Shown here: piece by piece, positions 24,142-34,217 of the stretch | How positions within the stretch are numbered: position 1 is the first letter of the stretch | Layout of the letters: each line of letters starts with the position of its first letter | DNA from: Chitinophagales bacterium | GTDB taxonomy: Bacteria; Bacteroidota; Bacteroidia; Chitinophagales; Saprospiraceae | Length of the DNA stretch: 64,000 nt | Direction of reading: 5' to 3' | Assembly (NCBI GenBank): GCA_013298845.1 | Contig: JAAFJN010000003.1 | Span: 116,989 to 180,988 of the forward strand | Translations under genes and position numbers: made by a program | The notes under the pieces: model-generated | What the model saw: the letters and a program-made list of their open reading frames with translations, nothing else | Told to the model about the DNA's origin: nothing | Database searches by the model: none

Positions 24142-25653
24142 TTAACCAATCCAACCCTTCAACACCCACAAACTCCAGAAAACAATCATGCTGCCCACGG
24201 CAAAAGACATGATCCTCACGGGTAACCGACCGGCAAAACGCGCACCAATGGGGGCCGCAATCACCCCGCCAATAATCAGACCCGTAATAACGACCCAATG
24301 CGATAAACCAATGGCCGAAAAAAACGTGATGGCACTGGCCAGGGTGACAAAAAATTCGGTCAAACTCACCGAACCAATCACGTATTGCGGGCTTTTTCCC
24401 TTGGCGATCAAAGTACTGGTCACCAATGGCCCCCAACCGCCGCCGCCAAACGAATCCAAAAAGCCACCGGCTGCCGCTAACCACCCCAAATTTTTTACTT
24501 TTTTGCGGTTTTGCTGCCGAATAAATGCTTTTGACAAAATACGCAACCCCAGTAAACACGTGTAAGTAGCCAGTATGGGTTTCAGGTAGGCGCCGTATCG
24601 TTCGCCCAAAAATACCAATAACAAAGACCCCACAATGGCTCCCAACACGCCCGGCACCAGCAACGCCCGCACCAAACGGCGGTTGATATTCCCAAACCGA
24701 AAATGCGAATACCCCGAAGCCCCCGCCGTAAATACCTCCGCCGTGTGAATACTCGAACTAATGGCTGCGTAAGGTACCCCCGCGCTTAACAAACACACCT
24801 GCGTGGTGACGCCGTAACCCATGCCCAACAAACCATCGGTGAGTTGTGCCAAAAAACCCACCCCAAAAAACGTCCAAAATTCGCCGGGAATAGCCCCAAC
24901 GTAGCCGCCCCAGGTGTTAAAAGGAAAATACACCGAAATGACATTGCACAGCAGCGAAATAAAAAAACCGGCGAAGGCAAAATGGGCAATCCGCCGCCAG
25001 CGCGTATCGCTGATGCGCTCCAGGTTTTGACTGGGAACAATGGCATTCAGGGCTTCTTCGCCCGCCGCAATGGACGCGGTGAGCGCATTGAGGGAACGGA
25101 CTTTTTCCGAAAAATCGCCTTTGAGTTGGGCGCGAATTTCGGTCATGTTCGATAACAGTTCGTTCAATTCACCGGGCAAGGCTTCGTTTAAAGTCTCTTT
25201 GAGGCGTTTGGCCACGGTAGGTGATTTGCCATTGGTCGAAATGGCAATTTTTAAATCTCCTTTTTGCACCACCGAACTCAGGTAAAAATCGCATAAATCG
25301 GGCGTATCGGCCACGTTGACCAAAATACCCCGTTCCCGGCACACCGTGCGGATGTCGCGGTGCAGTTCCCGGTTATCGGTCGCCGCAATCACAATTTGTT
25401 GCCCGTCGAGGTCCGACCATTCAAAGGGCTTTTCCACGAGTTGCACCTGCGGATAATCGGCGGCAAAAGCGCGCACATCGGCGCGAATTTCGCGGCCCAC
25501 CATCGTGACCAGTGTTTCGGGACTGTTGCGCAATACCGCCGTTATTTTTTCCAAACCCACGTTACCCCCGCCCACGATGAGCACGCGCATGGTTCCCAGT
25601 TTTAGAAAAACGGGAAAAAGGTTATTTCCTGCTAGCATCTTTTTTTTAGACAT
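24142..25653 (-). CDS. Precorrin-2 dehydrogenase (siroheme synthase) fused to a TSUP/TauE permease
   Basis: 503 residues from the ATG at 25653; an alternative ATG at 25638 is possible, and the longer frame runs through repeats. Residues about 10-220 are the CysG-N/Met8 type enzyme: NAD-binding VLIVGGGNVGLEKI (about 24-37), ATDNRELHRDIR, and DFYLSSVVQKGDLKIAISTNGKSP. The enzyme oxidises precorrin-2 to sirohydrochlorin and may also insert iron to make siroheme for CysI. Residues about 230-503 form about eight membrane helices of the TSUP family (GFLAQLTDGLLGMGYGV, GGFLDSFGGGGWGPLV), which move sulfite, sulfate or organosulfur anions. It is the last gene of the cys operon, so coupling siroheme supply to a sulfur anion carrier makes sense. 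Transport direction is unknown. Confidence 0.88.
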   Translation of the reverse strand: MSKKKMLAGNNLFPVFLKLGTMRVLIVGGGNVGLEKITAVLRNSPETLVTMVGREIRADVRAFAADYPQVQLVEKPFEWSDLDGQQIVIAATDNRELHRDIRTVCRERGILVNVADTPDLCDFYLSSVVQKGDLKIAISTNGKSPTVAKRLKETLNEALPGELNELLSNMTEIRAQLKGDFSEKVRSLNALTASIAAGEEALNAIVPSQNLERISDTRWRRIAHFAFAGFFISLLCNVISVYFPFNTWGGYVGAIPGEFWTFFGVGFLAQLTDGLLGMGYGVTTQVCLLSAGVPYAAISSSIHTAEVFTAGASGYSHFRFGNINRRLVRALLVPGVLGAIVGSLLLVFLGERYGAYLKPILATYTCLLGLRILSKAFIRQQNRKKVKNLGWLAAAGGFLDSFGGGGWGPLVTSTLIAKGKSPQYVIGSVSLTEFFVTLASAITFFSAIGLSHWVVITGLIIGGVIAAPIGARFAGRLPVRIMSFAVGSMIVFWSLWVLKGWIG

Positions 25654-25654
25654 G

Positions 25655-25790
25655 TGGGGCGCGACCCTTATGGTCGCCCTTTGTTGGGGCGCCCCTCGTG
25701 GGTGCCCTTTGTTGGGGTGCGCCCCTCGTGGTCGCCCCCGCCTTTTCGTCACGCGGCCCGTTTTCGCCACACGGCCGTGTGGCGCTACGG
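25655..25790. repeat. Palindromic GGGCGACC/GGGCGCCCC repeats inside the cys operon
   Basis: Between cysI and the siroheme synthase/TSUP gene there are tandem GC-rich inverted units (GCGACCCTTATGGTCGCCC, GGGGCGCCCCTCGTGGGTGCCC, then GCCACACGGCCGTGTGGC) joined by TTTGTTG. They belong to the GGGCAGCC palindrome family. Strong hairpins here could lower expression of the last gene or protect the upstream mRNA. Confidence 0.75.
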
Positions 25791-25792
25791 GT

Positions 25793-27508
25793 TTACGCGT
25801 GAAAATCCAAACCGTGGTGGGTGGCGGCAACAATCTCCTTTCGGATGACAAAATCACCAAAATGTTCGCCGCGCGTCCGTTCGCGGGAGAATGCCTCCAA
25901 CAGCGGCGTCAGTTCGCGCAGAATGGCCGCTTCGTCCAGCATTTCGAGGTAGAGTTTATTCAGACGAGAACCATCGTGGGCACCGCCGAGGTACAGGTTG
26001 TAATAGCCCGGCGATTTACCCACCAAACCGATTTCGGCGAGGTAAGGGCGGGCGCAACCATTTGGGCAACCCGTCATACGAATATTAATGGGTTCGCGGT
26101 CGAGGTGTGTTTGGCGCAATATCCCGTCAATTTTATCCAACAACGACGGTAAATAACGCTCTGCTTCCGCAAATGCCTGCGAACAAGTATTCAAGGCAAC
26201 GCACGCCAGCGCAAATTGCCGCATGGCCGTTTGGTTAAAAGTCGTGTTCAATAGGCCGTATTTTTCCATAATGGCCTCAATGGCCGGGCGTTTTTCGGGG
26301 CTGATGTTGCCAATCACCAGGTTTTGGTTCCCCGTGAGGCGAAAATCGCCGTCGTGAATACCCGCAATGGCCCGCAGCGCCGTGCGCAAAGCGTATTGGG
26401 GCGTGTCCACAATCCGGCCGCCTTCCACAAACAAGGTAAAATTAAATTTCCCCGATTCGGTGGTTTTCCAACCCAATGGGTCGCCGTTGTGCGTAAATTC
26501 GTACGGCTGCGCCGCGCCAAAAGCAACGCCTGCGCGTTGTTCCACCTCGGCTTTAAACGCATCCAAACCCATGCGGTCCACCGTGTATTTGAGTCGGCTG
26601 AATTTGCGGTTTTCGCGGTTGCCAAAATCGCGTTGCGTCGTAATAATGGCTTCACAAACGGCCAATGTATCGGCTACCGACACAAAACCCAGCACATCAC
26701 CGAGGCGCGGGTACGTTTCCGGCATGCCAAAAGTCATCCCGAGGCCACCACCGGCGGTCACGTTAAACCCGATGAGTTCGCCGTCCTGCTGAATGGCAAT
26801 CAAACCGATGTCGTTGGCAAAAATATCGGTATCGTTGTGCGGCGGTACGGCGAGGGCAATTTTGAACTTGCGCGGCAGGTACGTTTTGCCGTACACCGGC
26901 TCCACGTCTTTGCCTTCGGTTTTGGTGGTGCGGAACGGTTGGGTTTCGTCCACCTGTTCGCCATCGAGCCAAATTTCGTAATAAGAAGTTGTTTGTGGCG
27001 TAAAAGCATCACTAATGGCCTTCCCGACCTCAAAAACCGCTTGGTGTACGCGGCTTTCGTTGGGGTTAGGGCTGCACATCACGTTGCGATTCACGTCGCC
27101 GCAACCCGCAATGCTGTCCAGAAGTACGTCATTAAACCCGCGAATGGTCGCCTTCAAATCGCGTTTGCGAATGCCGTGCAATTGAAAGGCCTGCCGCGTG
27201 GTGAGTTTAATGGTGCCGTTGCCGTATTGGTCCGATAACTCGTCCATGCGCAGCCATTGGGCGGGCGTAGCCACCCCGGCCGGGACCCGAATCCGAATCA
27301 TAAACGAAAACAAAGACTCCAGTTTTTGGGCTTTGCGTTCGCTGTCGAGGTCGCGGTCCGTTTGTTGGTACGAACCGTGAAATTTAATCAGGTTGGTATC
27401 GTCGGGGAACAACGCGCCGGTAATCCGGTTATCGAGGCTTTCGTTGAGCGAGCCGCGCAAATAATCGCTGTTGTCCTTTATGTGTTCTACTTCTGATAAC
27501 TTTTGCAT
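25793..27508 (-). CDS. cysI: Assimilatory sulfite reductase hemoprotein (beta) subunit
   Basis: 571 residues, the normal length for CysI. It carries siroheme and a [4Fe-4S] cluster and reduces sulfite to sulfide with six electrons. Recognisable are FHGSYQQTDRD near the N-terminus, LTTRQAFQLHGI (siroheme side), GCGDVNRNVMCSPNP, and the cluster-binding half LNTCSQAFAEAERYLP plus TGCPNGCARPYLAEIGLVG with the four ligand cysteines. The C-terminal ending with HFGDFVIRKEIV is typical of the NADPH-dependent enzyme. The start ATG at 27508 lies 34 bases after the DUF2490 gene. Its electron donor is cysJ in the same operon. Regulation is presumably through the leader at 34.0-34.2 kb. Confidence 0.97.
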   Translation of the reverse strand: MQKLSEVEHIKDNSDYLRGSLNESLDNRITGALFPDDTNLIKFHGSYQQTDRDLDSERKAQKLESLFSFMIRIRVPAGVATPAQWLRMDELSDQYGNGTIKLTTRQAFQLHGIRKRDLKATIRGFNDVLLDSIAGCGDVNRNVMCSPNPNESRVHQAVFEVGKAISDAFTPQTTSYYEIWLDGEQVDETQPFRTTKTEGKDVEPVYGKTYLPRKFKIALAVPPHNDTDIFANDIGLIAIQQDGELIGFNVTAGGGLGMTFGMPETYPRLGDVLGFVSVADTLAVCEAIITTQRDFGNRENRKFSRLKYTVDRMGLDAFKAEVEQRAGVAFGAAQPYEFTHNGDPLGWKTTESGKFNFTLFVEGGRIVDTPQYALRTALRAIAGIHDGDFRLTGNQNLVIGNISPEKRPAIEAIMEKYGLLNTTFNQTAMRQFALACVALNTCSQAFAEAERYLPSLLDKIDGILRQTHLDREPINIRMTGCPNGCARPYLAEIGLVGKSPGYYNLYLGGAHDGSRLNKLYLEMLDEAAILRELTPLLEAFSRERTRGEHFGDFVIRKEIVAATHHGLDFHA

Positions 27509-27542: not shown

Positions 27543-28184
27543 TTAAAGTCGTATCAACAACGTCGTCCGCCAAATATCCGATTCCAAAGTGCTGCCTTTG
27601 CGTTGTTGATAAATGTGTAAATACCCCATTTCAACGGCAATTTTTTGGGAAAAACGCCCTTCAAACGCGGCATAAACGCGGTTTTGGTCAAAAGCATCGG
27701 TGTGGAAAAGGTATTCCTCACTGAGTTTAAATATCCCCCAAGTCCACGGCGAATAATTTAACTGCAACCGGTGCCGCATGCGAAACCGAAACCGTAAGGT
27801 AGCCCGGTTGGGCTGGTCAAACCACCGTTCTTCCACCCGGATGCGCTGCTGAATATTCCATTTCGACCACAAGTGCCATTGCATGTGGGCCTCCTGAAAC
27901 AAACGGTATTCGGGTACTCCGGTTACCGTCGAATAACTGGCACCCGGTGCTACCGACCACTTTGTATTGAGGCGTCGCCGGGCGCTGGCGTGGGTGATAA
28001 ATTGTATATGATCGTTGGTTCCCCATTCTTTCCGTTCGTCGGCCTCTAAGTGAATTTCCCAGGGGGTGCTGCCGCTGATTTGCGCGTATAGCCGCGTCCA
28101 ATAAGCACTTTGCTGCTCAGTTTGAGCGGAAATACGGGTGAAAAAAACAAACCCTAACGTCACTGTAAATAAAAAACGAACCAT
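27543..28184 (-). CDS. DUF2490-type outer membrane beta-barrel in the cys operon
   Basis: 213 residues from the ATG at 28184, which opens a signal peptide (MVRFLFTVTLGFVFFTRISA). The mature sequence alternates aromatic/hydrophobic and polar residues (WSVAPGASYSTV, WNIQQRIRVEERWF, LRFRFRMRHRLQL, AVEMGYLHIYQQR) and ends with hydrophobic LLIRL, as in DUF2490 barrels. The family has no established function. It lies 91 bases after cysJ and 34 bases before cysI, so it separates the two sulfite reductase subunits yet is very likely cotranscribed with them. A role in outer membrane passage of a sulfur compound is a guess from context only. Confidence 0.75.
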   Translation of the reverse strand: MVRFLFTVTLGFVFFTRISAQTEQQSAYWTRLYAQISGSTPWEIHLEADERKEWGTNDHIQFITHASARRRLNTKWSVAPGASYSTVTGVPEYRLFQEAHMQWHLWSKWNIQQRIRVEERWFDQPNRATLRFRFRMRHRLQLNYSPWTWGIFKLSEEYLFHTDAFDQNRVYAAFEGRFSQKIAVEMGYLHIYQQRKGSTLESDIWRTTLLIRL

Positions 28185-28275
28185 TAAACCGAAATTAAAA
28201 TATTTTGTCGGCGGCAAAAATGAGGCGTTTTTTTGTGGCAACTGTGCGTTAAGTACGCGGTTTTTGGGAAATTTT

Positions 28276-30099
28276 TTAATACACATCCTCCAAAAATCGG
28301 CGCTGTTTTTTCAAACTGCTCAAGTATTCCTGCGCGAATTCGGCCCCTTTGCCCGATTCCTGGGCGATAATTTGGACCAAAGCCGCCTGTACGTCGTGGG
28401 CCATTCGGGTTTTATCGCCGCAAACGTAGAAGTACGCGCCATTTTCGAGGCGTTCAAAAATCAGTTTGCTGCGCTCCAGCAGGCGGTGTTGCACGTAAAT
28501 TTTATCCTTTTGGTCACGGCTAAAGGCCACATCGAGGCGGTCGAGGGTGCCGCGTTTGAGGTGGTTGAGCCATTCGGACTGGTACAAAAAGTCGGTTTCA
28601 AAGTGCGGATTGCCAAAAAACAACCAGTTGCGGCCCTGCGCCCCGCGTTCGGTGCGTTCTTCCACAAAAGCCCGGAACGGCGCAATACCCGTTCCCGGTC
28701 CCACCATAATAATATCGGTGGTATCGTCCGCCGGAAGTTTGAAATAGGCATTTTGTTCCACAAAAACCGGTACCGTTTGCCCGGTTTCCAAGCGGTCGGC
28801 CAGGTACGTGGAGGCGGCACCCCAATGCGGGCGACCGTTGAACTCGTACCGGACCGCACCCACGGTCAGGTGCACTTCATCGGGGTGGGCGTTCAGGCTC
28901 GACGCGATGGAGTACAAACGCGGCGGCATTTTGCGCAAAAAACTCAGCAAGGTGGTTTCCGACATGGCTGCCGGGTATTCGCGGAGCAAATCGGCCAAAT
29001 TGCGGCCGTACAGGAAGGCGCGCAAGGTGTCGTTATTGCCCAATATGTCTTTGAGTTTGGCATTGCCCGTCCAGTTGGCGTAGTTTTCCACCACTTCGCG
29101 GTTGAGCGTCGTGATTTCGGCTTCGTGGAGCAAAATATCGCGGAAACGGCCCTCTTTTTCGTTAAATTTTACCTTTCGGTCGCCGTCCAACATGGCGGTG
29201 TTTAAAATTTCTTTCACCAGTGCGGGCGGGTTCGAGGCGTACACCCCCAACGCATCGCCCGGTTCGTAGGCAATACCGGAACCTTCCAGCGATAATTCGA
29301 GGTGCCAGGTTTCTTTATCCGAACCCCGACCATTCAATTGGATTTTTTCCAAAACCGTCGCCGCAAACGGGTGTTTGCGGGTGCCGGTAACCGGTGCCGC
29401 CGGTGACACCGCAGGCGCGGAAGGATGCACTTTAGCCGACGAAATTGCCGCTACCGGCACGGGCAAATGCACCAATACGGCTTCCAGCCAAGCCTCGGCG
29501 GTATCGGCGTAATCCACGTCGCAATCGGCGCGGGCCACGAGGCGTTTGGCCCCTAATTCTTCCAATCGGGTATCAAAATCTTTACCGGTTTGGCAAAACT
29601 GCAAATAACTGCGGTCGCCCAATCCGCACACGGCAAATTGTAAACTTTCGAGGCGGGGTGCGCGGGCGCTAAACAGCCATTTGTAAAAGGTTTCCGCCGA
29701 AACCGGTGGTTCGCCTTCGCCCTGCGTGCTGGTAATGAGCAGGACAATTTGTTCGTTTTTGAGGTTTTTAACGGCGTAATCGTTCAAATCTTCCACTTTT
29801 ACGGCCCAACCGGCATCCCGGAGCCGCGCTGATGTTTGTTGGGCCAATTTTTTGCTGTTGCCCGTGTGTGAGCCGTACAAAATGGTAATGCCGGGCCGTT
29901 CGGCCACTAATTCGGCCGCTTGCGGGGTCGTGGGAATGCCGTTGGCAGTTAACTCCGGGGCAATGGTTCCGGCCGTAGCGGGTTGTTGTTGGGCAATGCC
30001 GTACAGGTAACCGCTGAGCCACATTTGCTGAAGGCTGTTTTGGGCGGCCAGGCGTTGAAGGAGTTCATTGTCGAAACCTATGGGAGGCGTGGTAATCAT
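28276..30099 (-). CDS. cysJ: Assimilatory sulfite reductase (NADPH) flavoprotein (alpha) subunit
   Basis: 607 residues. A flavodoxin domain (about 70-205) has the FMN loop ILYGSHTGNSKKLA and TSTQGEGEPP. An FAD-binding connecting domain follows from about 235 (HLELSLEGSGIAYEPGDALGVY; RLYSIASS near 398), then the NADPH domain (MVGPGTGIAPFRAFVEER; FFGNPHFETDFLYQSEW; YVCGD) with the classic C-terminus KKQRRFLEDVY. It passes electrons NADPH to FAD to FMN to CysI. A Pro/Ala-rich linker joins the first two domains. It starts 14 bases after cobA. All cofactor motifs appear intact. Confidence 0.97.
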   Translation of the reverse strand: MITTPPIGFDNELLQRLAAQNSLQQMWLSGYLYGIAQQQPATAGTIAPELTANGIPTTPQAAELVAERPGITILYGSHTGNSKKLAQQTSARLRDAGWAVKVEDLNDYAVKNLKNEQIVLLITSTQGEGEPPVSAETFYKWLFSARAPRLESLQFAVCGLGDRSYLQFCQTGKDFDTRLEELGAKRLVARADCDVDYADTAEAWLEAVLVHLPVPVAAISSAKVHPSAPAVSPAAPVTGTRKHPFAATVLEKIQLNGRGSDKETWHLELSLEGSGIAYEPGDALGVYASNPPALVKEILNTAMLDGDRKVKFNEKEGRFRDILLHEAEITTLNREVVENYANWTGNAKLKDILGNNDTLRAFLYGRNLADLLREYPAAMSETTLLSFLRKMPPRLYSIASSLNAHPDEVHLTVGAVRYEFNGRPHWGAASTYLADRLETGQTVPVFVEQNAYFKLPADDTTDIIMVGPGTGIAPFRAFVEERTERGAQGRNWLFFGNPHFETDFLYQSEWLNHLKRGTLDRLDVAFSRDQKDKIYVQHRLLERSKLIFERLENGAYFYVCGDKTRMAHDVQAALVQIIAQESGKGAEFAQEYLSSLKKQRRFLEDVY

Positions 30100-30113: not shown

Positions 30114-30914
30114 TTAGGGTTTAATGTTGTATTCGAGGTTCAAAATGGTTTGATCGAGGGCCACGCGCTGGCGCACTACTTCCCCGATCACAATCACCGC
30201 CGGACTGCCAATACCGGCTTGCGCAACGATTTGGTTAATATTGGAAGCCGTGCCAAATACTTCGCGTTGTTCGGGCAAAGAGGCGTTTTGAATCACCGCA
30301 AAAGGCAGGGCCGGTTTGCCATTTTCGCGGTAAATGCGGGCAATTTCTTCCAATTTATGCACGCCCATCAGCACCACAACGGTGGCATCGGTTTGGGCTG
30401 CCGTGGCAATTTCGGGATTGAGCACCCCCGTATCGGTCGTGGCGGTAATCACCCAGAAACTGCGGCTCGCGCCCCGGGTAGTGACGGCAATCCCGGCGGC
30501 TCCGGCGGCGGCAATTGAACTGGATACGCCCGGAATATAGTCCGCGGCCACGCCATTCTCTTGGGCAAACTGCAATTCTTCCAAACCCCGGCCAAACACA
30601 AACGGGTCGCCGCCCTTGAGGCGCACCACGTGTCCGCAGCAACGCGCATACGCCACAATACGTTCGTTAATTTCTTCTTGCGTAAATGCCTTGGCGCCAA
30701 GGCGTTTTCCCACGTAAACGCACGAAGCAGCGGCGGGAGCGTATTGTAATAAGGATTCATTCACCAAGGCATCGTACAACACTACATCGGCTTGTTGCAG
30801 TGCTTTGATGGCTTTGAGCGTGATTAAATCCGGGTCGCCGATACCGGCCCCTACAACCGTAAGGCGTGGAACGATAGTATTGGACGGGTTGATTTGTATT
30901 GCGTCGTTGTGCAT
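30114..30914 (-). CDS. cobA: Uroporphyrinogen-III C-methyltransferase (SUMT)
   Basis: 266 residues. The S-adenosylmethionine-dependent enzyme methylates uroporphyrinogen III at C2 and C7 to give precorrin-2, the precursor of siroheme. Family signatures include VVGAGIGDPDLITLKAIKAL, DVVLYDALVNESLL, VRLKGGDPFVFGRGLEEL and PGVSSSIAAAGAAGIAVTTRG. A stand-alone SUMT here complements the precorrin-2 dehydrogenase domain of the last operon gene, so together they replace a trifunctional CysG. It lies 26 bases after cysN and 14 before cysJ. Its presence in the operon ties cofactor supply to sulfite reductase demand. Confidence 0.96.
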   Translation of the reverse strand: MHNDAIQINPSNTIVPRLTVVGAGIGDPDLITLKAIKALQQADVVLYDALVNESLLQYAPAAASCVYVGKRLGAKAFTQEEINERIVAYARCCGHVVRLKGGDPFVFGRGLEELQFAQENGVAADYIPGVSSSIAAAGAAGIAVTTRGASRSFWVITATTDTGVLNPEIATAAQTDATVVVLMGVHKLEEIARIYRENGKPALPFAVIQNASLPEQREVFGTASNINQIVAQAGIGSPAVIVIGEVVRQRVALDQTILNLEYNIKP

Positions 30915-30940: not shown

Positions 30941-32224
30941 TTAAATGGCAAATTCAGCGGCGGGTGCTTCTTCCGGGTGAACGGGCAATAACATACCCGC
31001 CGCTACTGTGTCAAATGTGTTTTCGTTAATCAGAATCAGGCCGCCAGTATTGCGGTTGTGTTGGTAAGCGTCAAACACCAGAGGTTTGGACGTACGCAAA
31101 CGCACCCGCGCGATGTCATTTAGTTTCAAGGTGTCCGTGGGGTGTTGTTCAAAGGTGTGCACATCGGTGCGGTGGTAAATTTCCCGAACAATGGCTTTCA
31201 CCGTGGTCGAATTGTGCCGCAGCAGGTAGCGGTCGCCCGTTTGCAGGGCGCGTTCGCTCATCCAGCAAAGGTCCAATTCAATATCTTGCGTCGTGGCAGG
31301 GGCCGTTTCGCCGATTTTAACAAATGTATCGCCGCGCGAAATGTCAATATCGTCCTCCAAATGCAGCACAATGGGTTGCAACGGACCGGCTTCCAGTACT
31401 TCCTGTTGGTTGTATTCAATGGCTTTTACGGTAGAAACAATATCCACCGGCAGCACTCGGATTTTGTCCCCCACGGCGAGGTGGCCGCTGCGCAAACTAC
31501 CGGCGTAACCGCGATAATCGTGCAGTTCGTCGGTGCCGGGGCGAATGACGTATTGCACCTGAAACCGCGCTTCTTCAGCGGCATTGTTTTCGGATACTTC
31601 CACCGTTTCGAGGTGATCGAGCAGGGTTTTGCCGGTGTACCAGGGCATATTGGGCGATTTATCTACAATATTATCCCCGGCAAGGGCACTCACCGGAATA
31701 AAAGTCACCTCCGGAATGCGCAGCGATTGCACGAGTTTTTGGTAATCAGCGGCAATGCGGTAAAAAGTTTGCTCGTCGTAACCCACCAAATCCATTTTAT
31801 TCACGGCCACGGCCAGGTGCGGAATGCCCATCAGCGCGGCTACCAAACTGTGGCGGTGGGTTTGCTCTACTACACCTTGGCGCGCATCAATCAGGATAAT
31901 CGCCAAGTCGGCGTTGGAGGCCCCCGTCACCATGTTGCGGGTGTATTGCACGTGACCGGGTGCATCGGCGATGATGAACTTGCGGCGCGGCGTGTTGAAA
32001 TATTTGTACGCCACGTCAATGGTAATGCCCTGTTCGCGTTCGGCGCGCAGGCCATCGGTGAGCAGCGAAAGGTCAATTTCGTTGCCCTGTTTGTTTTTGC
32101 TTTGTCGCTCCAAAGTGTGCAAAATATCGTGCGAAACGGCTTTGGAATCGTATAATAGACGGCCGATCAGGGTGCTTTTCCCGTCATCCACAGAACCGGC
32201 GGTGATGAATTTTAGAATTTGCAT
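30941..32224 (-). CDS. cysN: Sulfate adenylyltransferase subunit 1 (GTPase)
   Basis: 427 residues. A translational-GTPase G domain occupies the first about 210 residues: P-loop GSVDDGKSTLIGRL, switch with GITIDVAYKYF, DAPGH, and NKMD near 142. Two beta-barrel domains follow. CysN hydrolyses GTP to drive CysD-catalysed APS formation from ATP and sulfate. No APS kinase (CysC) domain is fused at the C-terminus, and none is encoded elsewhere in the operon. The cysD stop is 14 bases upstream, as expected for a stoichiometric complex. Confidence 0.97.
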   Translation of the reverse strand: MQILKFITAGSVDDGKSTLIGRLLYDSKAVSHDILHTLERQSKNKQGNEIDLSLLTDGLRAEREQGITIDVAYKYFNTPRRKFIIADAPGHVQYTRNMVTGASNADLAIILIDARQGVVEQTHRHSLVAALMGIPHLAVAVNKMDLVGYDEQTFYRIAADYQKLVQSLRIPEVTFIPVSALAGDNIVDKSPNMPWYTGKTLLDHLETVEVSENNAAEEARFQVQYVIRPGTDELHDYRGYAGSLRSGHLAVGDKIRVLPVDIVSTVKAIEYNQQEVLEAGPLQPIVLHLEDDIDISRGDTFVKIGETAPATTQDIELDLCWMSERALQTGDRYLLRHNSTTVKAIVREIYHRTDVHTFEQHPTDTLKLNDIARVRLRTSKPLVFDAYQHNRNTGGLILINENTFDTVAAGMLLPVHPEEAPAAEFAI

Positions 32225-32238
32225 GTTTTTGTTGAATT

Positions 32239-33147
32239 TTAAAAATACCCATTTTTCTTCCGGTCTTCCATAGCCGCTTCGGAGAGGCGATCATCGAGGC
32301 GGGTGGCACCGCGTTCACTCACTTTGGTGGAGATAATTTCGCTGATAATATCGTCAATCGTGATGGCCGGGCTTTCGACGGCGGCGGTGCAGGTAGCGTC
32401 GCCCACGGTGCGGAAACGAACATCGCGCACGGTGGTTTCGTCTTCCGGATCGAGTCGAATGTGTTCGGTAATGGCCAACAATTGCCCGGTGGGCGTTACC
32501 ACACAATCGCGGGAGTGGGAGAAATAGATTTCCGGCAATTCGATGTTTTCGCGGCGGATATAATTCCACACATCCAATTCGGTCCAGTTACTAATGGGAA
32601 ATACCCGTACGTTTTCACCTTTGCGAATGGCCCCGTTGTAAATATCCCACAGTTCGGGCCGCTGGCGTTTGGGATCCCAGCCCCCAAATTCGTCGCGGAT
32701 ACTAAAGATGCGCTCTTTGGCGCGCGCTTTCTCTTCGTCCCGGCGCGCGCCGCCGATGCAGGCATCAAATTCAAATTCTTCAATCGTTTCCAATAATGTA
32801 TAGGTTTGTAAGGCATTTCGGCTCGGGTATTTGCCCGTTCCATCCTTCAAACCCTGTCTTTTAATGGTATCTTCTACCTTGCGCACAATGAGTTGCTCGC
32901 CCAATTGCGCGGCGAGGCGGTCGCGATAGGCCAATACTTCGGGGAAATTATGACCCGTATCCACGTGTACCAACGGGAACGGGAATTTGCCGGGACGAAA
33001 GGCTTTTTCCGCCAGTTTTACCAGCGTAATAGAGTCCTTACCCCCCGAAAACAACAAGGCTGGCCGCTCAAATTGCCCGGCTACTTCGCGTAGAATATAG
33101 ATGGCCTGGGCTTCCAGATGATCGAGATAATCTAAATGTTTCGACAT
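32239..33147 (-). CDS. cysD: Sulfate adenylyltransferase subunit 2
   Basis: 302 residues, matching CysD. The PP-loop ATP pyrophosphatase signature is ALLFSGGKDSITLVKLA near residue 30. FPLVHVDTGHNFPEVLAYRD and CIGGARRDEEKARAKERIFS follow, and the C-terminus SERGATRLDDRLSEAAMEDRKKNGYF is characteristic. It makes APS and pyrophosphate from sulfate and ATP in complex with CysN. It lies 108 bases downstream of cysH, the largest gap in the proximal half of the operon; I see no hairpin strong enough to be a terminator there. Confidence 0.97.
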   Translation of the reverse strand: MSKHLDYLDHLEAQAIYILREVAGQFERPALLFSGGKDSITLVKLAEKAFRPGKFPFPLVHVDTGHNFPEVLAYRDRLAAQLGEQLIVRKVEDTIKRQGLKDGTGKYPSRNALQTYTLLETIEEFEFDACIGGARRDEEKARAKERIFSIRDEFGGWDPKRQRPELWDIYNGAIRKGENVRVFPISNWTELDVWNYIRRENIELPEIYFSHSRDCVVTPTGQLLAITEHIRLDPEDETTVRDVRFRTVGDATCTAAVESPAITIDDIISEIISTKVSERGATRLDDRLSEAAMEDRKKNGYF

Positions 33148-33255: not shown

Positions 33256-33984
33256 TTATGCGGTGGCGGCGTGGCTATGCAGGCCGCATTCTTTTTTACT
33301 GCTGTCTTCCCACCACCAGCGTCCCGCCCTAAAATCTTCGCCGGGCTGAATGGCGCGGGTACAAGGCGCACAACCAATACTCACAAATCCTTTTTTGTGC
33401 AAAGGGTTGGTGGGTATGCGGTGCGTGTCCACATAAGCCTGTACTTGCTCAAACGTCCAATCGAACAGTGGGTGAAATTTAAATAATTGGTGGGTGGCGT
33501 CCCATTCAACGGGTTGCATATCCTGGCGGTTGGCCGATTGTTCGGCGCGAATACCGGTAATCCAGATGCTTTGATTTTTTAAAGCGCGGGCCAACGGTTC
33601 CACTTTGCGGATATGGCAGCACTCTTTACGGTTTTCGACGGATTGGTAAAAACTATTGGGGCCTTTTTGGGCGAGGAGTTGTTCAAGGGCGTTGGCTTGG
33701 GGGGCAAATACTTCGATGGGTTGTTGGTAAACATCCAGGGTGCGCGACCAGGTGGAATAGGTTTCCTGAAAATTGCGGCCCGTATCCAGCGTAAATACCC
33801 GAATGGGCAGTTTTTCCGAAAAAATAAGGTGCGAAATCGCCTGATCCTCTAACCCGAAACTCGTGCTGAATACGATGCTCCCGGCAAAGGTTTCCGACAA
33901 CCAGGCCAGCGCCGCCTGCGGGCTTTGTTCCCGGTGCGGCTGCAAGGCTTCTGACAGTGTTTCGAGTGTGTATGTTGATGGCAT
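33256..33984 (-). CDS. cysH: Phosphoadenylyl/adenylyl-sulfate reductase, probably APS-type
   Basis: 242 residues from the ATG at 33984. The longer frame (to 34188) runs through the attenuator hairpin and has no family similarity, so the internal start is preferred. The PP-loop region is GSIVFSTSFGLEDQAI, followed by LDTGRNFQETYSTW. The cluster signature is complete: Cys122-Cys123 (KECCHIRKVEPL), 81 residues, then Cys205-x-x-Cys208 (CAPCTRAIQPGEDFRAGRWW), plus the catalytic C-terminal KKECGLH. The CC...CxxC set marks [4Fe-4S] enzymes that reduce APS directly with thioredoxin, consistent with the absence of cysC. It is the first gene after the leader, 35 bases beyond the terminator stem. Confidence 0.95.
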   Translation of the reverse strand: MPSTYTLETLSEALQPHREQSPQAALAWLSETFAGSIVFSTSFGLEDQAISHLIFSEKLPIRVFTLDTGRNFQETYSTWSRTLDVYQQPIEVFAPQANALEQLLAQKGPNSFYQSVENRKECCHIRKVEPLARALKNQSIWITGIRAEQSANRQDMQPVEWDATHQLFKFHPLFDWTFEQVQAYVDTHRIPTNPLHKKGFVSIGCAPCTRAIQPGEDFRAGRWWWEDSSKKECGLHSHAATA

Positions 33985-34018
33985 AAAAACCAGTTGAGTG
34001 AAAAATTTGATCAAAAAT

Positions 34019-34054
34019 AAAAAGCCCTTCGGTTGGGTTACCGAAGGGCTTTTT
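34019..34054 (-). terminator. Intrinsic terminator (attenuator) upstream of cysH
   Basis: A perfect 15-base-pair stem: AAAAAGCCCTTCGGT (34019-34033) and its complement 34040-34054, with a six-base loop. In the minus-strand transcript the stem ends in GGGCTTTTT followed by ATTTTTGA, giving the U-tract. Read from upstream it lies 40 bases after the leader peptide stop and 34 bases before the cysH ATG, so it can only act as a conditional terminator. Its 5' arm and loop can instead pair with leader segment 34122-34131. Confidence 0.88.
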
Positions 34055-34094
34055 ACGCTACGAAAATTTATATCGAAACAAGTTTTTTTAATGC

Positions 34095-34181
34095 TTATGA
34101 TATAAATGTGAAGCGACCGCCTCGGTAACCCGATGGTGGACAACAACAACAACACATCATATTTGCAGTTAAAAAAATCAT
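34095..34181 (-). CDS. Leader peptide with five consecutive cysteines (cys operon attenuator)
   Basis: A 28-codon frame from the ATG at 34181 to TAA at 34095. The order is MIFLTANMM, then five TGT (Cys) codons at 34154-34140, then PPSGYRGGR and a short hydrophobic end. Cys is normally one of the rarest amino acids, so five identical codons directly upstream of cysH-cysD-cysN are very unlikely by chance. The two prolines after the run could further slow a ribosome. The ATG lies four bases after a TACCTTTG box, so the message is probably leaderless. Ribosome stalling at the Cys run when charged tRNA-Cys is scarce would favour the antiterminator and let transcription reach cysH. Function is inferred from layout. 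Similar polycysteine leader ORFs acting as cysteine attenuators are described in mycobacteria. Confidence 0.85.
   Translation of the reverse strand: MIFLTANMMCCCCCPPSGYRGGRFTFIS
34122..34131 (-). promoter_or_regulatory. Antiterminator arm in the cys leader
   Basis: In the transcript, GGGTTACCGA (codons Ser-Gly-Tyr-Arg of the leader, eight bases after the last Cys codon) is perfectly complementary to TCGGTAACCC, which spans the 5' arm and loop of the terminator (34035-34044). The match extends by a G-U and a G-C pair to 12. Pairing would break the terminator stem. Confidence 0.75.
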
Positions 34182-34185
34182 ACCA

Positions 34186-34217
34186 CAAAGGTAGGGGTTA
34201 ATTTTTCTGGCGGACAA
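34186..34217 (-). promoter_or_regulatory. Promoter of the cys operon (TTG-N21-TACCTTTG)
   Basis: On the minus strand, TACCTTTG occupies 34193-34186 and TTG 34217-34215, separated by 21 bases. This fits the Bacteroidota -33/-7 arrangement and is identical in spacing to the promoter at 39200-39231. The start point would fall at or just before the leader ATG. Confidence 0.7.

Follow-up and report, generated by a model that had tools for sequence, protein, structure and literature searches.

The classical points of comparison are the trp/his-type attenuators of Proteobacteria, in which codons for the end product lie in a leader peptide and are followed by protector, antiterminator and terminator elements. 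The leader that we describe here stands ahead of the cysH operon in a 64,000-nucleotide stretch of Saprospiraceae DNA (the window), and it has the same codon logic and the same order of elements; the differences are that cysteine would be the amino acid sensed, that the promoter is of the Bacteroidota type with the AUG 4 nt past the -7 box, and that such leaders often come two in series. Poly-Cys leaders as such are already known, and attenuation on Cys codons has been predicted before. Mycobacteria have leaderless short ORFs with poly-Cys runs (Canestrari et al. 2020, as cited in PMC9094748 and PMC13236596; earlier, PMC4633059 and PMC1262725), and, as far as the accessible parts of these papers go, what they have in common with our leader is a poly-Cys short ORF ahead of cysteine-pathway genes, which in our case is predicted to be leaderless or nearly so; the mycobacterial run, however, lies near the stop codon with no conserved terminator hairpin in the accessible text of PMC1262725, whereas in the window a putative protector, an antiterminator and a terminator follow the run. 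For the uORFC-8-2 motif of Rhodobacterales cysS, with its Cys codons and intrinsic terminator, ribosome-mediated attenuation was predicted in 2021 (PMC8632094); the accessible portion of that paper describes two Cys codons before a cysteinyl-tRNA synthetase gene in Alphaproteobacteria, unlike the 4-11 Cys codons before sulfate assimilation or cysteine synthesis genes in the Bacteroidota leaders (five, before cysH, in the window).

Within the phylum, leader-peptide attenuation has been proposed in general terms (accessible parts of PMC9723704 and PMC7366714) and, more specifically, for amino-acid operons of Flavobacterium psychrophilum (PMC9723704), a proposal that shares with ours the phylum and the leader peptides, and whose accessible main text names no cysteine or sulfate case. 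An earlier note on this DNA knew of no described poly-Cys leader with an intrinsic terminator in this phylum; precedents for such attenuators nevertheless exist in uORFC-8-2 (PMC8632094) and in the phylum-level proposals (PMC9723704). Among the matches listed in open-access full text, no report appeared of a cysteine attenuator of Bacteroidota sulfate assimilation, of cysteine attenuators in series, or of a poly-Cys leader combined with a SAM riboswitch.

Judging from the sequence, we think it very probable that the window leader is a cysteine-responsive, ribosome-mediated transcription attenuator. The earlier note had arrived at this reading from a TTG-N21-TACCTTTG promoter with an ATG 4 nt on, a 28-codon frame with five TGT codons, a terminator stem with a T-tract and an exact complement to it just past the Cys run, all lying before cysH-cysD-cysN-cobA-cysJ-DUF2490-cysI-siroheme synthase/TauE, and each of these parts is found as described (Table 1). 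The hairpin holds 17 pairs, one of them G-U; the exact complement is the 10-nt core of an element 2:3 duplex of 15 pairs with one bulged C (34131-34116 with 34049-34035, -26.9 kcal/mol); and the operon's gene identities were confirmed with Pfam and NCBIfam. The Cys run is followed by 42 nt to the stop codon and then by the terminator, which contributes most of the advantage that the leader's fold has over shuffled sequences (z -6.1, 0/200). Known Rfam families were rejected as an identity for the leader, since the 11 matches at E up to 1 all lie far below their gathering scores.

Table 1. Parts of the cysH leader and genes of the operon behind it, by position in the window
Feature	Positions	Strand	Remarks
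TTG, -33-like element	34215..34217	minus	21 nt ahead of the -7 box; consensus from the accessible part of PMC7366714
TACCTTTG, Bacteroidota -7 box	34186..34193	minus	followed by TGGT, then the leader ATG (gap 4 nt)
Leader ORF MIFLTANMMCCCCCPPSGYRGGRFTFIS, 28 codons	34095..34181	minus	ATG at 34181, stop ends at 34095
Five Cys codons (all TGT), proposed sensor	34140..34154	minus	within the leader ORF
Element 1, 5' arm of putative protector hairpin	34130..34139	minus	adjoins the Cys codons on their 3' side; local fold -10.9 kcal/mol, z -2.0
Element 2, antiterminator strand	34116..34131	minus	CCGAGGCGG half pairs with element 1; whole pairs with element 3
Element 3, GCCCTTCGGTAACCC, terminator 5' arm and loop	34035..34049	minus	partner is element 2 or 4
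Intrinsic terminator, a hairpin of elements 3 and 4 with A/U extension	34017..34056	minus	runs into T-tract; from folding
cysH, PAPS/APS reductase, first gene	33256..33984	minus	NF002537, TIGR00434, TIGR02055 over cut-off; ATG at 33984, 32 nt past the hairpin
cysD	32239..33147	minus	NF003587, TIGR02039 over cut-off
cysN	30941..32224	minus	TIGR02034 over cut-off
cobA-like tetrapyrrole methylase, siroheme branch	30114..30914	minus	PF00590
cysJ	28276..30099	minus	TIGR01931 over cut-off
DUF2490 protein	27543..28286	minus	PF10677
cysI	25793..27508	minus	TIGR02041, NF010029 over cut-off
Siroheme-synthase N-terminal domains fused to TauE/SafE	24142..25860	minus	PF13241, PF14824, PF01925; start codon uncertain

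In the mechanism that we propose, RNA polymerase would start at the leader AUG or within a few bases of it. With ample Cys-tRNA the ribosome would clear the Cys codons, and element 2 would be either covered by the ribosome or paired with element 1; with element 2 so occupied, the terminator (3:4) would form and transcription would end about 30 nt before cysH. With scarce Cys-tRNA the ribosome would halt on the Cys codons and mask element 1, leaving element 2 free to pair with element 3 before element 4 is made, so that no terminator would form and the whole sulfate-to-sulfide operon would be transcribed. We infer the stalling, the efficiency of termination and the role of cysteine as the signal in vivo.

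What do the relatives say? A CysH search of the own genome and 60 relatives gave matches in 30 of the relatives and, leaving out five weaker second CysH-like matches, 18 cysH loci of the same genus (L001-L017 and L030, a partial match), one of which (L007) has only 107 nt of upstream DNA. The leader is present at all 17 loci with enough upstream DNA, and these hold 20 leaders, because L003, L010 and L011 carry two each (in the last two another gene lies between the leaders and cysH). In every one of the 20, 4-7 consecutive Cys codons are preceded, at a distance of 9-16 codons (9 in the window), by an in-frame ATG, and a hairpin of the type GCCCTTCGG...CCGAAGGGC is present. When two leaders from another genus (L060, L061) are added, a TAnnTTTG box lies exactly 4 nt ahead of the ATG in 15 of 22 cysH leaders and 8 nt ahead in two, and it is absent from five (L004, L006 and the second units of three tandems). 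This spacing and the conservation of the ATG mark 34181 as the conserved start; the nearer ATGs at 34160 and 34157 were considered and set aside as a family start, given that an ATG so close to the run (within 6 nt) occurs in only 3 of the 20. The transcript is therefore predicted to be probably leaderless or nearly so, and about 3.7% of Bacteroides 5' UTRs are shorter than 10 nt (accessible part of PMC7366714). In the 20-leader alignment the invariant columns outside the terminator all lie within the run of Cys codons or at two positions of the antiterminator core. The 12 CysH loci of other families (L018-L029) show no such leader, a weak negative, since an operon there may begin with a gene other than cysH.

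The device is not confined to cysH. A plain 15-mer Cys pattern has 27 matches in the own genome (overlaps included) as against nine for the reversed control, and reading of context picked out from these a second leader, MNRLFTPCCCCCCCLPRGQRATHGMEKRD, upstream of cysE-cysK (L058), where the serine acetyltransferase scores over the cut-off of NF041874 (EpsC) and under that of TIGR01172 (cysE), and cysK over that of TIGR01139. Its terminator, GGCTCTTTCCC..., has a fitting partner in the post-Cys strand GTGGGCAAAGAGC (-16.2 kcal/mol), and the logic is the same with stem letters that differ from those of the cysH leader. Of 23 loci in the genus that match CysE strongly (the own genome counted), 16 were found to carry a leader, with at least two of the other seven on short contigs; a -7 box is seen in nine of these 16 leaders, 13-20 nt from the ATG. 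A third leader of the own genome, upstream of a TonB-dependent receptor gene (G000:C82, L089), was found by a covariance model, R1, which matched 33 of 199 Saprospiraceae genomes. Thirty of these came with a locus, and our detector, which looks for a Cys run with an in-frame ATG, a stop codon and a hairpin with a T-tract, confirms a leader in 19 (the window and 18 others) and does not in 11. R1 is not specific, as it also matches L101 (E 2.4e-6) and L102 (8.2e-6), neither of which has a Cys leader.

Together, the CysH, pattern and R1 searches yielded 52 detected leaders, of which 51, from 37 loci, form our first set (the match at L054 lies inside a coding gene and was dropped). Their runs comprise 4-11 Cys codons (TGT:TGC 223:76), varying in length by whole codons and in third bases between T and C, and each of the 51, that of the window included, has a strong hairpin with a T-tract at 43-93 nt. 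Outside the Cys run the peptides have little in common between loci, and they differ even between leaders of one genome. Two complete leaders stand in series at 14 of the 37 loci, a frequency that is biased by the way in which these searches chose the loci. The genes behind the leaders, some scanned as examples and the remainder labelled by reading, include cysH, a nitrite/sulfite-reductase-like gene with a cobA-like gene, a cysM-like synthase gene (under the cut-off of TIGR01138, and often beside a JAB-like peptidase gene) and a peroxiredoxin gene; no NCBIfam model scores over its cut-off on the nitrite/sulfite-reductase-like protein.

To look across the phylum we took the best 80 of 569 Bacteroidota loci around the nitrite/sulfite-reductase-like gene (the named set). 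Among these best 80, the detector finds 39 Cys-run leaders on the gene strand, in 26 loci, and none on the other strand, as against 12 and four for the next amino acid, Leu; short ORFs with at least four consecutive Cys codons number 47 and zero. Four of the 26 leader loci (L125, L136, L137, L151) have no convincing terminator. Loci named Saprospiraceae (16), Lewinella, Neolewinella or Phaeodactylibacter carry a leader in 15 of 19 cases, eight of them with two; of the remainder, L135 does contain poly-Cys runs, two of them, which escaped the detector, and L123, L126 and L155 have no leader by the detector. Of the 61 other named loci seven have a leader, in Chitinophagales, Cytophagales and unplaced Bacteroidetes MAGs, and two leaders are found in 11 of 21 leader-bearing named loci once the duplicate L109 is removed. 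An R1 search of the phylum matched 19 of 296 genomes, the own one included, and among the 18 others only L249 and L252, both from other families, hold at least four consecutive Cys codons near the match, the former before a cysK-like and the latter before a nitrite/sulfite-reductase-like gene (by reading). R1 is a weak probe outside Saprospiraceae; within that family the candidate poly-Cys device is common, and elsewhere it does occur, though more sparsely.

An attenuator of this type depends on the fit between antiterminator and terminator, and we compared the duplex energy of each leader's own pair with that of permuted partners, a test that corrects only partly for relatedness. Across the 51 first-set leaders the own duplex averages -16.75 against -11.88 for permuted partners (sd 0.42; 0/20,000 permutations), and it lies below its row mean in 48, with the own partner the best of the whole row in only 14. 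At the 14 tandem loci, where both leaders have genome and base composition in common, the own pairing is better than the swapped one in 11 (Wilcoxon p 0.0037). A second set of 32 leaders from the named loci behaves alike (-13.24 against -8.86, sd 0.47; 0/20,000; 29 of 32 below the row mean); seven of its 39 rows had been dropped, namely the two of L109 (a duplicate of L096), those of L125, L136, L137 and L151, and one overlapping row of L132. Tested apart, L125, L136, L137 and L151 give no significant difference (n=4; -8.5 against -8.42), and nor do the 16 cysE leaders alone, whose stems are alike (1,817/20,000; 8 of 16 below the row mean). The antiterminator starts a median of 10 nt (range 4-18) past the last Cys codon in the 51 leaders, and this is about where a stalled ribosome would end, going by its footprint.

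Covariation within the 20-leader alignment gives a more varied picture. For the terminator, counted together with three protector pairs and compared with 500 shuffles, 94.3% of cells are paired against 90.3% (0/500), six cells are changed on both sides against 1.3 (0/500) and covariation is 0.115 against 0.058 (0/500); weaker results come from the pairs changed on both sides (3 against 1.2, 31/500) and from further pair types (7 against 5.9, 125/500). In the antiterminator the core is almost invariant and the extension shifts register; here the shuffles are matched and not exceeded, both by column-wise covariation (0.111 against 0.116, 298/500) and by paired cells (77.3 against 76.6%, 173/500), which is why the tests of own against swapped duplexes were used too, and the true register beats slid ones (77.3% of cells paired against at most 54.7%). 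The comparison with relatives, which the earlier note had singled out as able to overturn it, has come out in its favour: the Cys codons, the probably near-leaderless start and the terminator are kept, with an antiterminator that matches on average, and the second occurrence in this genome, ahead of cysE-cysK and with other letters in its stem, supports ribosome-mediated attenuation further.

The earlier note had also been troubled by a ribosome that reaches the stop codon, as it would leave the antiterminator arm partly free. A putative protector hairpin goes some way towards an answer, and it is likely to be a missing part of the switch. Its local fold in the window has -10.9 kcal/mol (z -2.0), and over the 51 leaders the local fold of this region is hardly better than that of shuffles (mean z -0.26); the swap test nonetheless favours the own partner, both with a 12-nt arm (0/20,000, 51 leaders) and with strictly non-overlapping strands (37/20,000, 48 leaders). 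When a ribosome is modelled as stalled with Cys codon 1 or 3 in its A site, the nascent chain adopts the antiterminator at -37.1 kcal/mol, and with codon 5 there it does so at -29.8 kcal/mol. In the model without a ribosome, the protector forms while element 3 is still to be transcribed, and once element 3 is out and element 4 is not yet made, the antiterminator is the minimum (-37.1). In the complete leader the terminator is the minimum-energy fold in every modelled state, the stalled ribosome included. Since the complete leader goes to the terminator, and the leader before element 4 to the antiterminator, regardless of the ribosome, the switch must be kinetic on this modelling, as the earlier note had suspected; energies alone would not settle its outcome, and timing would still matter.

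A different combination turns up in Cytophagales. A SAM-I aptamer (RF00162) lies ahead of a C-terminal or atypical poly-Cys ORF in nine of ten loci tested (the tenth, from Flexithrix, L131, has no aptamer), and among 14 further loci one was found only in L174, where a poly-Cys ORF is present too. In the ten genomes with both parts (the nine and that of L174) the aptamer ends 6-10 nt ahead of an in-frame ATG of the ORF (L185 has an additional ATG 2 nt past the aptamer), and the ORF's run of 5-8 Cys codons is separated from the stop by 0-3 codons. Nine of these genomes belong to Cytophagales genera (Pontibacter, Cesiribacter, Fulvivirga, Botryobacter), and L182 is an unplaced Bacteroidia MAG. 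The same ten genomes have 33 SAM matches, 30 of them with loci, and a Cys ORF (3-8 consecutive Cys) is found at 20 of these 30. None of the eight metH loci has one, as against 20 of the 22 before other genes (p 7.7e-6; with the eight starting loci removed from the 20, 12/14 against 0/8, p 1.4e-4), the exceptions, L221 and L225, having ORFs with scattered Cys. The loci other than metH precede O-acetylhomoserine sulfhydrylase, cysH, ferredoxin or nitrite/sulfite-reductase-like genes; these labels come from reading N-termini, and a single representative per gene type was scanned, that for metH being a fragment that scores below the model's cut-off. No downstream intrinsic terminator better than -12.4 kcal/mol was found for these Cytophagales leaders, which may therefore act at translation or via Rho.

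Might the window leader itself work in that way? The idea would be that control is mainly translational or Rho-dependent, with stalling altering access to the cysH start or to a Rho site, and that the hairpin is an ordinary terminator for short transcripts. Precedents exist: in the accessible text of PMC1262725 the poly-Cys leaders of Actinobacteria have no conserved terminators, the accessible part of PMC13236596 cites the M. smegmatis ones as attenuators of translation, and the Cytophagales runs end at most three codons from the stop with no terminator better than -12.4 kcal/mol. We nevertheless regard this as improbable for the window, because all 51 leaders of the first set have a strong hairpin with a T-tract at 43-93 nt and because the 5' arm of the terminator fits the strand past the Cys codons.

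A very small chance is left to the thought that the short ORF encodes a functional Cys-rich small protein (metal- or sulfide-binding, for example) with a terminator of its own, its match with sulfur operons reflecting co-expression. The in-frame ORF is conserved and has its own promoter box and terminator, as such a gene would; but the peptides share little outside the run and differ within one genome, the RNA past the run fits its own terminator, and a free protein would need neither a terminator before the operon nor serial copies. We give slightly less credence still to a metabolite riboswitch or T-box with an incidental ORF, for which one might cite the structured 5' leader with its terminator and the SAM-I aptamers found ahead of related Cytophagales genes. 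Against it, every Rfam match in the window leader falls far short of its gathering score, and the invariant columns, the terminator aside, lie in the Cys run and at two antiterminator-core bases. The preferred reading, attenuation by a ribosome on the Cys codons, draws on the parts and their order, their conservation, the fit of element 2 to 3, the weaker fit of 1 to 2 and the recurrence at cysteine-pathway genes, and the genes behind the leaders (cysH, cysE-cysK, cysM-like and nitrite/sulfite-reductase-like) suit an attenuator.

Beyond the window, we incline, with moderate confidence, to a broad cysteine-sensing RNA regulon in Bacteroidota, in which poly-Cys leaders would control sulfate assimilation, nitrite/sulfite-reductase-like, cysE-cysK, cysM-like and TonB-dependent receptor genes, often two complete ones in series as a steeper or two-step gate. 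In Cytophagales, with SAM-I 6-10 nt ahead, one leader would read both methionine (SAM) and cysteine status, and the riboswitch would probably control whether the sensor ORF itself is translated. For Bacteroidota the gain would be a concrete, testable means of sensing cysteine in sulfur assimilation, with no dedicated protein required. Ribosome-mediated attenuation depends on ribosomes that follow close behind RNA polymerase, and in Bacteroidota both promoters and translation starts are unusual, so that a working attenuator, if true, would speak for the coupling of transcription and translation in these bacteria. The cysE-cysK copy, the arrangement in series and the composite of SAM and cysteine sensing would then be one sensing principle, reused and combined.

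At L133, L136, L137, L141, L151, L174, L179, L182, L185 and L186 of our comparison loci (and likewise in L219-L248) a short ORF with a poly-Cys end starts 6-10 nt past a SAM-I riboswitch, upstream of nitrite/sulfite-reductase-like, cysH or O-acetylhomoserine sulfhydrylase genes. Within the same genomes, such an ORF followed 20 of 22 riboswitches before non-metH genes, while metH had SAM-I without it (0/8); leaving out the starting loci gave 12/14 against 0/8. Series arrangements also occur, with two complete poly-Cys attenuators, each having its own terminator, preceding one operon in 14 of the 37 loci of the first set. With the same detector, Leu-run short ORFs with terminators numbered 12 on the gene strand versus 4 on the opposite strand (80 named loci L109-L188, the best 80 of 569), and these may be chance or Leu leaders.

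Poly-Cys leaders and serial pairs by position
Feature	Position	Sequence	Downstream gene
Poly-Cys leader	L089:475-599 = G000:C82:1374-1498 (window's own genome)	MIKGMLTYSFQMTMCCCCTARFTEAATSTFGKR	TonB-dependent receptor
Serial attenuator pair	L003, L010, L011, L064-L068, L070, L072, L074, L076, L077, L087

Other genes are similarly preceded by poly-Cys leaders: a peroxiredoxin at L090 and L091 (in whose same-genus genomes, G018 and G011, a CysH search gave no match), a cysM-like gene further along L090, and a cysM-like synthase at L095, L098, L099, L104, L107 and L108. In L098, L099, L107 and L108 a JAB-like peptidase comes after the synthase (labels from a scan of L099 and from reading the remaining loci), a pairing that recalls sulfur-carrier cysteine synthesis, known from mycobacteria. 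A TonB-dependent receptor gene in the window's own genome also has such a leader, and we would guess that this receptor perhaps takes up a sulfur compound or peptide.
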